In this document: piece by piece, positions 15,405-19,740 of the stretch | Layout of the letters: every line of letters begins with the position of its first letter | How positions within the stretch are numbered: position 1 is the first letter of the stretch | Source of the DNA: a virus | Direction: 5' to 3' (one strand) | Virus record (IMG/VR): IMGVR_UViG_3300042507_000813 | Coordinates: 1-31,689 of that record | DNA: 31,689 bases | Translations under genes and position numbers: made by a program | Notes under the pieces: generated by a model | The model's database searches: none | What the model saw: the letters and a program-made list of their open reading frames with translations, nothing else | Told to the model about the DNA's origin: nothing

Positions 15405-15806
15405 CTAGAATGGGTTGTCATCATCAATGGAACCGGAATATGACCGAGAAGGATATTTTCCAGCGTTTTGGGGCGTTTCTGGCTGAGAATCGGGTTTGGG
15501 TCCAGCGAACTCTAATTCGCCTACCCTAGCCCTCATCGTCACGCCCTCGGAGCCATCCTTGCGCTTAAAGGTTTCTACATGGGGCTCTGTCATGCTGACA
15601 AACAATAATTGGCCTTTAGCAAGATACGGCTTTAACTTCTCGCAGCGCTCTCCCCACATAGTCCCATTAACCCATTGGGTTGGCTGCTTACCGTCAACCT
15701 TGCGGCCATAAGAGAAAGCCAACGACAAATCCATGATGGCCTTACCATCTGGCGTGTAACGAACCTCGGGTTCATTGCCCAGGCGGGCTAATCCAAGCAT
15801 TAACAT
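15405..15806 (-). CDS. ssb: Single-stranded DNA-binding protein
   Basis: 133 residues. An OB-fold start typical of SSB (LGLARLGNEPEVRYTPDGKA, then LSLAFS, then QWVNGTMWGERCEKLKPYL and KGQLLFVSM) is followed by a Pro/Ser linker and the acidic tip DDDNPF, which in SSBs binds partner proteins. ATG overlaps the exonuclease stop (TAATG, with GGGAG upstream). With the neighbouring exonuclease and Erf it forms a recombination unit acting on phage DNA ends. Confidence 0.88.
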   Translation of the reverse strand: MLMLGLARLGNEPEVRYTPDGKAIMDLSLAFSYGRKVDGKQPTQWVNGTMWGERCEKLKPYLAKGQLLFVSMTEPHVETFKRKDGSEGVTMRARVGELEFAGPKPDSQPETPQNAGKYPSRSYSGSIDDDNPF

Positions 15807-16453
15807 TAAAAACTCCCTTTATCAAAGTAATTCGATTCGTCATTAAAAAACTCAAAAAGTGCATCGCATTCTGCTAAAAACTTTTCGGCAGCTGCGTTAA
15901 CCTCGGCCAACTCCTCTGGGGTTGGAGTGTATTTCTTGATAAACAGGTCTTTGCCCTCGCCCATGCGCGGGTCGTAGGACACAAACCAGACATCCTTACC
16001 GGTGCAGGCCGACTGCAGCAACATCTGCGGCTTGTAATCCTCTGGAATAATCTGGTTGGCCACATACTTCATGTGTGTCTTGGTCTTGGGGCATTTGACC
16101 TCGATCAAGCAGCCATCGGACACAAACCCGTCTGGGCTCACGCCGCAATGGTCAATGTTGGGATGGTCAATAAAGCCAACATCCGTGACCATGAGGCCGG
16201 TACGGGTCTCAAAGGCCTCTTTAGCCGCGGCCTCCTGATCCACGCCCCATTGCATATCCGAGGTCATGTACTTGTCGGCAAAAGTGTTGGTAATGCGCTC
16301 GGCCACAATCTCGTAGCGTAAGTTCTCGCGCTCACTTGACTCCCTGCCAGACTTTAGGAAGTTCATGGCCGCAGCCATTCTGGAACCGGTTAACTTACCG
16401 AGGCGGTCATTCCACCAGGTTCCGTCTTGTTGAAATGGGTTTGGTTCACGCAC
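15806..16453 (-). CDS. YqaJ / lambda-exonuclease-family 5'-3' exonuclease
   Basis: 215 residues. Catalytic-core motifs of the PD-(D/E)XK lambda-exo family are visible: WGVDQEAAAKEAFE (E74), GVSPDGFV (D108) followed by LIEVKCP (E118, K120), then YKPQMLLQS near residue 140. It resects double-stranded DNA ends to 3' tails for the annealing protein made by the upstream gene. It overlaps that gene by 8 bp and shares its last bases with the ssb start. Confidence 0.92.
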   Translation of the reverse strand: MREPNPFQQDGTWWNDRLGKLTGSRMAAAMNFLKSGRESSERENLRYEIVAERITNTFADKYMTSDMQWGVDQEAAAKEAFETRTGLMVTDVGFIDHPNIDHCGVSPDGFVSDGCLIEVKCPKTKTHMKYVANQIIPEDYKPQMLLQSACTGKDVWFVSYDPRMGEGKDLFIKKYTPTPEELAEVNAAAEKFLAECDALFEFFNDESNYFDKGSF

Positions 16454-16997
16454 TTTGCGCTCCTTTTAGTTTGTCGTTATGTTTAGCTGCCAACTCACGC
16501 ACTAATTCGCGCTCGTCTGCTGCCAATGTTTTCCAAGTAGCGGTTAACTGCTCGGAACTGGTTGCTGCAGTAATTAAGGCCTCAATCTCGGCTTTGGTGC
16601 GCGTTGATTTAGGCTTAGCTGGAGCGCGAGATGCATTGTTGCCATCATCATCTTCTGGAGCAATACCACACGCCGCTTGAAGCGAATACCGGCGGGCATA
16701 AGTCATTGCTGATCCGTAGCCCTGGGCATCTTGCTTGGTAGCTGGCACATGGAGTTTGCCGCCGGAAATCATCTCGCCAGACTCATGGATAAAAATGGTC
16801 TCAATAATGATTCCATCCGCACATTCGTGCGAGTGCTGAACCAAGGCAATTCCATTCTCGTTAAGGGCATCAATCACGGCCTCAACGCAAGCAGCCAGGT
16901 CAGCATATCTTGATTTGAAGTGTGGATTGGTGGACGATTTAAGCGCTGGCCCGAAGGCCTTTTGCGCTTTAACTAATGCGGTTGCTATTTTTTGCAT
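16446..16997 (-). CDS. erf: Erf-family single-strand annealing protein
   Basis: 183 residues from the ATG at 16997, chosen because GGAGAGAAT lies directly before it; an upstream in-frame ATG at 17072 would add 25 unlikely residues. Erf-family signatures: TNPHFKSRYADLAACVEAV (residues 23-41), GIALVQHSHE, and DAQGYGSAMTYARRYSLQAA followed by DDDGNNAS. The protein anneals complementary strands and, in P22, circularises terminally redundant DNA, which suits a headful phage. A Pro/Lys linker precedes a C-terminal helical tail. Confidence 0.9.
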   Translation of the reverse strand: MQKIATALVKAQKAFGPALKSSTNPHFKSRYADLAACVEAVIDALNENGIALVQHSHECADGIIIETIFIHESGEMISGGKLHVPATKQDAQGYGSAMTYARRYSLQAACGIAPEDDDGNNASRAPAKPKSTRTKAEIEALITAATSSEQLTATWKTLAADERELVRELAAKHNDKLKGAQSA

Positions 16998-17008
16998 ATT
17001 CTCTCCAA

Positions 17009-17137
17009 TTAAATAAACAGTAAAAGTAAACAAAACACCACTAAACCAACTGCAGCCAAGGCCTCCATCCAAGGCGATTCTTTTTTAGTAAACACATTGC
17101 GCTGCCATTTATTGGCCTCAAAGTTAGTTTTTCTCAT
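17009..17137 (-). CDS. Tiny C-terminal-anchored membrane peptide, 42 aa
   Basis: ATG at 17137 overlaps the stop of the upstream gene (ATGA). A polar start (RKTNFEANKWQRNVFTKK) is followed by one hydrophobic helix (EALAAVGLVVFCLLLLFI) running to the stop TAA at 17009-17011. Its last codons contain one copy of the ACTGTTTATT motif discussed in the findings. Coupled translation and clean topology support a real gene; function unknown. Confidence 0.6.
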   Translation of the reverse strand: MRKTNFEANKWQRNVFTKKESPWMEALAAVGLVVFCLLLLFI

Positions 17138-18351: not shown

Positions 18352-18395
18352 GTTAATTCTCCTTTTTGTCCGGTCTGGAAGTTGACCGTAGATGA

Positions 18396-18424
18396 ATAGT
18401 AAACTGTTTATTTGCATTTCTCAA
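18396..18424 (-). promoter_or_regulatory. Early leftward promoter with embedded operator-like motif
   Basis: Reading leftward, TTGAGA (18424-18419) and TACTAT (18401-18396) are separated by exactly 17 bases, about 45 bp before the first early gene. The spacer contains AAATAAACAGT, the reverse complement of the ACTGTTTATT motif present in four other places. With its flank the motif forms the near-palindrome TAAACTGTTTA. A protein bound there would block the promoter. Boxes were seen by eye; not tested. Confidence 0.65.
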
Positions 18425-18446
18425 CAGATTTATGTGTTTTTTTATC

Positions 18447-18482
18447 AAAACTAGGGAAACCACCTATAAAACTAGGGTAAAC
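18447..18482. repeat. Tandem 21-bp-spaced direct repeat, likely operator or iteron pair
   Basis: AAAACTAGGGAAAC (18447-18460) and AAAACTAGGGTAAAC (18468-18482) share AAAACTAGGG, and their starts are 21 bp apart, two helical turns. This places both copies on one face of the DNA, upstream of the leftward promoter. Likely protein-binding sites. Confidence 0.65.
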
Positions 18483-18942
18483 ACTTAGAAAATGGCGTTG
18501 TTTTTTAGTCAATGCGCTAGATTTATCTGTGGTAACATGGCCATGTCAGCAAGGTGGCACTTGTTGGAATCTCTGGAAGCGAACCCCGAATTTTTCGGTG
18601 GTGCGATAGGTTTTGGCATCGGTCATTCTTCCAGAGGACTTATTCCAAAACTGCCCGCCAAGGCCGCACCACCCAAGGATTTGGGGTTTTTTGTTGCCTG
18701 CTGACTGCGACTGCGCTGGGGAGGGTAACGACCAGCTGCGCAGATCAAAGAGCCAGCTGGGGGGAAATGCGGAAGAATGGCGAATGAGGGCGGCGAAGTC
18801 AGCACCCTTGCATTAAAAGGCTGGCGAGTCTATGTGGCTCCGAAGTGAAAGCATAGTAAAGGAAGATTCGGTCATTCGAGGGATGGCTGAGTCTTGTCCA
18901 CCAAAGTGAAAATTAATTAATAACTACATACTTCAATCTTAG
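18483..18942. ncRNA. Noncoding control region with a structured-RNA candidate
   Basis: About 460 bases without a convincing gene, richer in G and C than the AT-rich promoters on each side. Pairings seen: GGTGGTGCG (18597-18605) with CGCACCACC (18665-18673), nine perfect pairs, enclosing GTTTTGG (18610-18616) with CCAAAAC (18645-18651). CTGCGC-TGG (18711-18719) pairs with CCA-GCGCAG (18732-18743, three-base bulge). CTATG (18830-18834) pairs with CATAG (18852-18856). CCCAA/TTGGG (18672-18685) followed by T6 may end a rightward RNA at 18692. TCGGTCATTC occurs at 18619 and 18868. Candidates are a phage regulatory RNA, a 5' leader of the rightward operon, or a replication origin; strand is not certain and no known RNA family was recognised. 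Confidence 0.45.
18535..18546. promoter_or_regulatory. Perfect 12-bp palindrome
   Basis: ACATGGCCATGT is a perfect inverted repeat at the left edge of the structured noncoding tract. It could be a dimeric regulator site. Only one copy was noticed. Confidence 0.35.
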
Positions 18943-18971
18943 TTGCAAACTATTTGCTAATCATTTATTCT
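18943..18971 (+). promoter_or_regulatory. Candidate early rightward promoter
   Basis: TTGCAA (18943-18948), a 17-base spacer, and TATTCT (18966-18971) in an AT-rich stretch just before the gene at 18991. Transcription would start only about a dozen bases before the ATG, overlapping AAGAAGGAGAAC. Alternatively, transcription enters from farther left and the structured tract is its leader. Confidence 0.4.
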
Positions 18972-18990
18972 CTGCAAGAAGGAGAACAAT

Positions 18991-19263
18991 ATGACCTTAG
19001 ATGACATCGAAGAAGTTGCCTTGAAATGTGGAATGGTTAAGACCAATAAAAAATGGTCGGCTACCGAAACCCAATTTGAATGTTTTACAACCAATTTCCT
19101 AGAGGAATTTAAAGGAATAGCCAGAGACCAGTTGGTTAAATCCATCAAACGCGCAGCCGATTACGAGCGCGAACAATGCGCCAAGATTGCTGAGATGGCC
19201 TGGTTTAACGGTATGGAACAAGACCATATCGCCAACGCCATTCGAGGCCGAGCGGACGAATGA
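18991..19263 (+). CDS. First gene of the early rightward operon, hypothetical, 90 aa
   Basis: AAGAAGGAGAACAAT precedes the ATG. The protein begins MTLDDIEEVALKCGMVKTNK and ends with YEREQCAKIAEMAWFNGMEQ and IANAIRGRADE; 'YEREQCAKIAE ... IA-aIR-R' is a familiar C-terminal end in small phage proteins of unknown function. Two-part helical layout, no membrane segment. Its stop overlaps the following tiny gene (ATGA). Confidence 0.75.
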   Translation: MTLDDIEEVALKCGMVKTNKKWSATETQFECFTTNFLEEFKGIARDQLVKSIKRAADYEREQCAKIAEMAWFNGMEQDHIANAIRGRADE

Positions 19264-19373
19264 ACACCAATTCAATCCAGGCACAACTGATTATCGAGTT
19301 GTCTTGGTTTATTTTGATTGTCGCAATACTGGTTGGACTTATTCTTTGGTGGACAAAAAATGACAGACTTTGA
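19260..19373 (+). CDS. Tiny membrane peptide, 37 aa
   Basis: ATG at 19260 overlaps the upstream TGA; 37 codons to TGA at 19371. One membrane helix (IIELSWFILIVAILVGLILW) fills the centre. It overlaps the next start by 14 bp. Overlap on both sides and a clean helix favour a real gene. Function unknown. Confidence 0.55.
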   Translation: MNTNSIQAQLIIELSWFILIVAILVGLILWWTKNDRL

Positions 19374-19740
19374 TGAATTTTGGAAACTTTATCCCCGCCG
19401 TGTGGCCAAGGGCGATGCGCGTAAGGCATGGACCCAAACCGAGGCAATCCGCCCACCGCTGCCAGAACTCTTGGAATCTATCCGGCAGCAGATGCGCTCG
19501 GATCAATGGCGCAAGAATGATGGTCAATTCGTATGTTACCCCGCAACTTGGTTGCGCCAAGAGCGCTGGTCCGATGAGTTAAAAGTAACCTTGCCTGGTG
19601 TTGTTGACGGCAAAGAATGGCACGAAACATGGCCCGGCATTGTGGCTAAAGGTAAGGAAATGGGCATTTTGGAGTCGCAGTTTGCCCATCCCTATGAATT
19701 CAAAGCGGCAGTATTTCGCGGATCAGTCAAAGCTGCGTAA
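19360..19740 (+). CDS. Replication-protein-like protein, C-terminal FWxxYP domain only
   Basis: 126 residues from ATG at 19360; an upstream in-frame start at 19318 has no ribosome site. It opens with MTDFDEFWKLYPRRVAKGDA and has RKAWTQTEA, then DQWRKNDGQFVCYPATWLRQ and ERWSDE. This 'FW--YPRk--K--A-KAW ... D---F--yPatWL-q-rW-DE' block is normally the C-terminal domain of phage replication initiators/helicase loaders, after an N-terminal winged helix that is absent here. It may recruit host DnaB-type helicase (inference). A short tail of unknown fold follows. Confidence 0.7.
   Translation: MTDFDEFWKLYPRRVAKGDARKAWTQTEAIRPPLPELLESIRQQMRSDQWRKNDGQFVCYPATWLRQERWSDELKVTLPGVVDGKEWHETWPGIVAKGKEMGILESQFAHPYEFKAAVFRGSVKAA

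Follow-up and report, generated by a model that had tools for sequence, protein, structure and literature searches.

The DNA analysed here, called the window, is a virus record of IMG/VR; it has 31,689 bases with a 31-base terminal repeat and is therefore probably a complete genome. An ordinary phage recombination pair, YqaJ-like recombinase/exonuclease plus ERF annealing protein, is encoded among its leftward early genes (15806-17072, - strand). A 460-base tract at 18483-18942 had been described in a sequence-only reading as a single structured noncoding region; structure and conservation are both confirmed, but the tract comprises two conserved structured RNA elements, a terminator element and, downstream of it, what we refer to as the RNA proper. 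The principal features are:

18564-18692, + strand: terminator element with a crossing pairing, upstream of the RNA proper
18564-18579, + strand: strand 1 of this element (TTGGAAT CTCTGGAAG), pairing with the apical loop of the hairpin that follows
18582-18692, + strand: terminator hairpin, outer stem AACCCC/GGGGTT and then six T
18711 to about 18911, + strand: RNA proper, delimited by alignment of homologues
18709-18829, + strand: span matching Rfam RF02932 (Betaproteobacteria-1), 65 bits against a gathering threshold of 49.4, E 5e-10
18912-18990, + strand: leader to the first gene, AT-rich and A-rich (family profile), with no terminator
19360-19740, + strand: initiator-like protein of 126 aa, consisting solely of a domain that is C-terminal in other phage initiators

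As had been claimed, the composition is GC-richer here (53.6% in 18540-18910 against 46.5% window-wide), and the tract folds at -148.2 kcal/mol compared with -131.0 for shuffled sequences (z -2.9). The RNA proper belongs to RF02932; the earlier statement that no known family was recognisable is wrong because 18709-18829 passes the RF02932 threshold. This is the sole Rfam match in 18380-19000 with E up to 1: plasmid copy-control RNAs and other ColE1-type models have no match in that interval, no model of a group I or II intron, known ribozyme or riboswitch matches the tract, and a tRNA/tmRNA scan of it was negative. RF02932 reportedly derives from a 2017 paper that presented 224 candidate structured RNAs. 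Rfam gives no function for it and none was found in the literature searched. The family occurs in betaproteobacterial phages and prophages and shares with the RNA described here the P1 and P4 regions, which overlap the Rfam consensus helices; the Rfam model ends before P5, P6 and the tail and has no P3, Px or P1-loop helix. Although the family is known, neither Rfam nor the literature searched contains its full fold, its self-matching repeat or the terminator element linked to it.

A conserved-core pattern recovered 11 viral contigs, all 11 of which pass RF02932. A further 17 loci tested were likewise all above the gathering threshold, which brings the homologous loci that pass it to 28. This is therefore a single family, and the Rfam model covers just its central part. 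Our own model, R1, was built from 18 sequences, and together with two wider pattern scans it yielded at least 137 distinct members. Many matches of the degenerate pattern scan were due to chance and were removed by the model, three loci (L260, L154 and L208) were false positives, and two (L181 and L182) were omitted because automatic detection of the boundaries had put their tails in the wrong place. In one Burkholderiaceae-type family the RNA was present in about 5-6 of 401 genomes sampled, and sampling the class more widely gave 1 in 369. BLAST of the window tract against phages and plasmids gave no match, and other queries identified two named phages with the RNA, Acidovorax phage AP1 and isolate ctpbd312. 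In ctpbd312 (MW202545, locus L039 5782-6239) two annotated hypothetical proteins, UOF78434 and UOF78433, overlap the RNA and are probably spurious reading frames. The annotation of AP1 (L038) contains many implausible product names, such as large tegument protein and STEC autoagglutinating adhesin, and has to be treated with care. One bacterial genome (L043 1500-1625) holds a diverged Betaproteobacteria-1 copy, either decayed or a variant, with neither the GGCGAAG core nor the 3' domain.

To derive the fold, 91 diverse sequences were aligned with plain MAFFT (alignment A2; the false positive L260 is included in its counts), and helices were picked in it by mutual information with no prior structure. 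Seven covarying helices, plus P6, extend over about 200 nt:

18711-18718/18736-18743, + strand: P1 hairpin, one mismatch (A2 columns 34-41/65-72)
18732-18735/18757-18760, + strand: P1-loop helix, crossing, CCAG with CTGG (columns 61-64/93-96)
18752-18755/18778-18781, + strand: P2, part of tested columns 87-91/128-132
18766-18770/18810-18814, + strand: Px, crossing, AATGC on the inner strand of P2 with GCATT (columns 117-121/163-167)
18787-18790/18805-18808, + strand: P3 pseudoknot, crossing, AGGG with CCCT (columns 138-141/156-159)
18798-18803/18820-18825, + strand: P4, its loop containing the 3' strands of P3 and Px
18830-18834/18852-18856, + strand: P5, covarying in A2, within module 1 (18827-18856)
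18863-18871/18887-18895, + strand: P6 hairpin, AAGATTCGG/CTGAGTCTT, nine pairs, from the sequence

Over the A2 helices 86.4% of cells are paired compared with 61.9% after shuffling, 862 cells have changed on both sides, and the covariation score is 0.614 compared with 0.194 after shuffling, with 0 of 500 shuffles reaching the observed score. When partners are slid by 1-3 columns pairing falls to 36-47%; it should be noted that relatedness among the sequences is kept by these slid controls and is not removed by the shuffles. Both-sided changes occur in 11 of the 12 pairs of P1 and the P1-loop helix and in all ten pairs of columns 87-91/128-132 and 117-121/163-167 (P2 and Px), while P3 is 97% paired, with both-sided changes in up to 42 cells, and P4 98% paired, with 48 and 42 such cells at two of its pairs. 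P6 was excluded from the pair count since its register varies between subgroups, and the complementarity of its strands across the family stands at z 9.5 over swapped strands. G.U mismatches exceed A.C mismatches (264 vs 89), showing that it is the + strand that folds. Invariant residues include GGCGAAG (18792-18798), which is enclosed by P3, and are also found outside the helices of the compact pseudoknotted core. The proposal of a conserved structured RNA is thus upheld by strong covariation among relatives.

Every pairing named in the sequence-only reading is present where it had been placed. Its bulged hairpin at 18711-18743 is P1 and its five-pair stem CTATG/CATAG (18830-18834/18852-18856) is P5, and the other two stems, GGTGGTGCG 18597-18605 with CGCACCACC 18665-18673 (nine pairs) and GTTTTGG 18610-18616 with CCAAAAC 18645-18651 (seven pairs), are inner stems of the terminator element, whose terminator stem spans 18582-18605/18665-18688 with a T-run to 18692; CCCAAGGATTTGGG followed by six T is present at 18672-18692. 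A repeat of TCGGTCATTC had also been pointed out; it does occur at 18619 and 18868, and only there, but it is not conserved as a repeat in a close relative (L004) and is probably a chance occurrence and not a functional signal.

The crossing pairing of the terminator element joins CTCTGGAAG (18571-18579) to CTTCCAGAG (18628-18636) and TTGGAAT (18564-18570) to ATTCCAA (18642-18648). Among 48 distinct loci the architecture is constant while the sequences differ, and the longest Watson-Crick run between strand and loop is 7.3 nt in the own combination compared with 5.09 +/- 0.14 in swapped ones, with runs of at least 7 nt in 79% of own and 7% of swapped combinations. From its sequence this pairing may be read in two ways, as a pseudoknot or as an attenuator switch. 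In most loci with the RNA at the head of its operon, the terminator hairpin ends some 11-38 nt before P1, and the element is mostly absent where a primase gene precedes the RNA. No Rfam model matched it in the sequences scanned.

A terminator is found within 150 nt downstream of the RNA in only 5 of 87 loci, with none in the other 82, indicating that the RNA is a cis leader or intra-operon RNA of early/replication operons; the structured leader that had been one of the earlier suggestions is supported to this extent. One of the few exceptions has a strong terminator soon after the RNA tail (L010, about 575-600). The next + strand ORF begins about 105 nt past the RNA, and the family profile of the intervening leader has an AT content of 0.65-0.71 and about 0.60 purine. 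The downstream genes are diverse and mostly on the same strand as the RNA. Among the matches listed, an initiator-like gene is present in 38 loci, always downstream of the RNA, a helicase gene in 27, a primase gene in 25 and a primase-helicase gene in nine, the last three named from sequence features together with the AP1 and ctpbd312 annotation; in most of the 25 the primase gene ends within about 10 nt upstream of the RNA. When only long-flank loci are counted, one of these four gene types lies within 4 kb in 25 of 36, and 11 of 36 have no recognised replication gene.

The initiator-like proteins encoded near the RNA are short, at 83-141 aa in 38 of 38 cases, and match PHROG 9327/270/9474 only at profile positions around 172-262. 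Homologues in ten other sampled phages have 221-291 aa, and several are annotated as HTH or replication initiation proteins; R1 found no RNA around these long genes, in DNA reaching mostly about 1 kb to each side. Lambda O-like initiator origins are comparable in having a protein of the same domain family nearby and in an early operon; they differ in that the N-terminal part annotated HTH in other phages is missing from the protein described here, and in the presence of the RNA in the region. A short initiator does not by itself predict the RNA, since ctn9Y15 encodes a short protein and has no RNA. Upstream of its 125-aa replication protein this phage has an unannotated HTH-like reading frame (L287 2420-2720), and it seems to carry the HTH-like initiator part separately.

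A module, RGU-N..Y..CC-A-X, occurs twice in the RNA, once as the 5' strand and loop of P5 and again as the 3' strand of P6 and the tail:

18843-18850, + strand: X copy 1, AAGTGAAA, in the P5 loop, matching the RNA's own tail
18890-18911, + strand: module 2, P6 3' strand and tail, TTGTCCACCAAAGTGAAA, showing identity covariation with module 1
18904-18911, + strand: X copy 2, AAGTGAAA, in the tail

The two modules covary by identity and not by complementarity, with columns 182/275 identical in 93% and 185/278 in 82% of A2 sequences (z 16), and 193/282 and 196/286 in 91% and 81%. X is mostly 5-12 nt long and 74% purine. Counting only those with six bases or more, at least 62 different versions of it exist; they vary between lineages but agree inside each RNA. 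Loop and own tail match over a mean of 6.42 nt, compared with 4.12 +/- 0.08 for swapped tails and 4.39 in the best of 2000 permutations, although some matches extend over just 4-5 nt. When near relatives with differing loops are compared in disjoint pairs, the own match exceeds the swapped one 29 times against 4 (p 3e-5); X has changed over an unchanged core in L190/L217 and L006/L012/L032. No own-specific complement of X was found within 700 nt, no third copy within 1 kb and no cis target in the fetched, partial contigs. Both module copies can pair with their own P6 5' strand over RGUN (z 5.3 and 9.5), so part of the module identity may reflect competition for that strand; X itself is not explained by such competition.

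Because loop and tail are identical in sequence, the loop is complementary to the tail's template DNA strand, and two matched copies with neither a complement nor a third copy form a self-sufficient pair, as expected for a loop RNA that reads the template of its own tail. Our leading reading, which we hold tentatively, is that the tract is the leader of an early/replication operon and its RNA an origin RNA that forms a hybrid with its own DNA template. According to this model, the terminator with its crossing pairing would gate early transcription. The RNA would fold co-transcriptionally into a compact pseudoknotted core presenting the P5 loop, and X would then invade the template DNA at the tail behind RNA polymerase. 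The resulting lasting RNA-DNA hybrid would open the DNA for replication, acting as a primer and/or helicase entry site; its partner would be either the short initiator-like protein or the helicase/primase. The purine-rich X and the AT- and A-rich tail would suit stable hybrids and DNA opening, and both the short initiators and the replication context agree with this model.

A precedent for such a mechanism exists. A loop of ColE1 RNA II pairs with the template strand. A persistent RNA II hybrid opens the origin and primes replication (PMC5043065). Both RNAs are long structured leaders before a replication region with an open tail after them; the hybrid with own template is here a proposal, and the identity between one RNA segment and the RNA at the proposed hybrid site is a likeness in working only. 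RNA II has no sequence or Rfam relation to the RNA described here. The latter is also shorter, has conserved pseudoknots and a hypervariable repeat, is found in phages, and has an upstream terminator in place of the known antisense RNA. An origin had already been suggested for the tract and is still a live option, but GC skew in three genomes placed no origin at the RNA. Further points against it are ctn9Y15, the 11 of 36 loci without a replication gene, the matches of 4-5 nt, and the identity at columns 182/275 and 185/278, which a loop-DNA hybrid does not need and which fits competition for the P6 5' strand.

We consider it more doubtful that the origin is self-addressed, in the sense that the loop, which evolves fast, recognises its own tail's DNA, the RNA and not the initiator's DNA-binding domain sets the replication start, and the upstream terminator is the switch. 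If the repeat does read its own DNA, tailed phages would have an RNA-specified origin, and incompatibility among related phages could depend on the hypervariable match. The full fold, the repeat, the terminator element and the missing initiator N-terminal part make the function of RF02932 directly testable.

Four alternatives rank below the origin reading. The best placed, though we think it rather unlikely, is a cis-acting antitermination or anti-pausing RNA that works on RNA polymerase and is gated by the upstream terminator, as a counterpart of HK022 put. Put is a cis-acting structured RNA element of early phage transcripts that needs no phage protein (PMC9378689), and a leader before diverse genes, mostly on the same strand and with no terminator after it, agrees with such a role. 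However, put is about 70 nt long with two stem-loops (PMC9378689) and lacks a self-matching repeat, a form not shared by the RNA described here, which has about 200 nt and several pseudoknots; antitermination gives no reason to expect a self-matching, hypervariable repeat, and the terminator lies upstream, out of cis reach of the RNA.

Somewhat less likely is a trans-acting guide, in which both X copies bind one foreign RNA or DNA target, such as another phage or a host transcript, for immunity or regulation, with X diversifying along with the target. Variation of X over a constant core is in keeping with this idea, and there is a parallel in RAGATH-18, an orphan RNA motif that proved related to the guide RNAs of a nuclease (PMC11061315). 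Yet a second copy of one guide would be superfluous, 82 of 87 loci have no terminator after the RNA, and no RNA-guided nuclease of the TnpB/IscB type was found among the neighbours scanned, which covered part of the window ORFs. A ribozyme or conformational switch, with the copies competing for the P6 5' strand, for example in self-processing of the leader, appears improbable: the compact pseudoknots with invariant residues outside helices and the complementarity of both copies to their P6 5' strand speak for it, whereas X has no complement in the RNA and no Rfam ribozyme or intron matches. An independent small RNA gene seems very improbable. The Rfam entry type 'Gene; sRNA', a type label and not a sequence criterion, speaks for it; against it, terminators follow the RNA in only 5 of 87 loci, and the primase stop codon often a few nt upstream places the RNA inside operon transcripts.

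A further observation concerns the fold itself. A2 columns 182, 236 and 275 (window 18827, 18858 and 18890; contexts CGRGU, URAAGG and RGU) are together all G in some lineages and all A in others, a pattern for which pairing offers no explanation and which perhaps reflects a tertiary contact.
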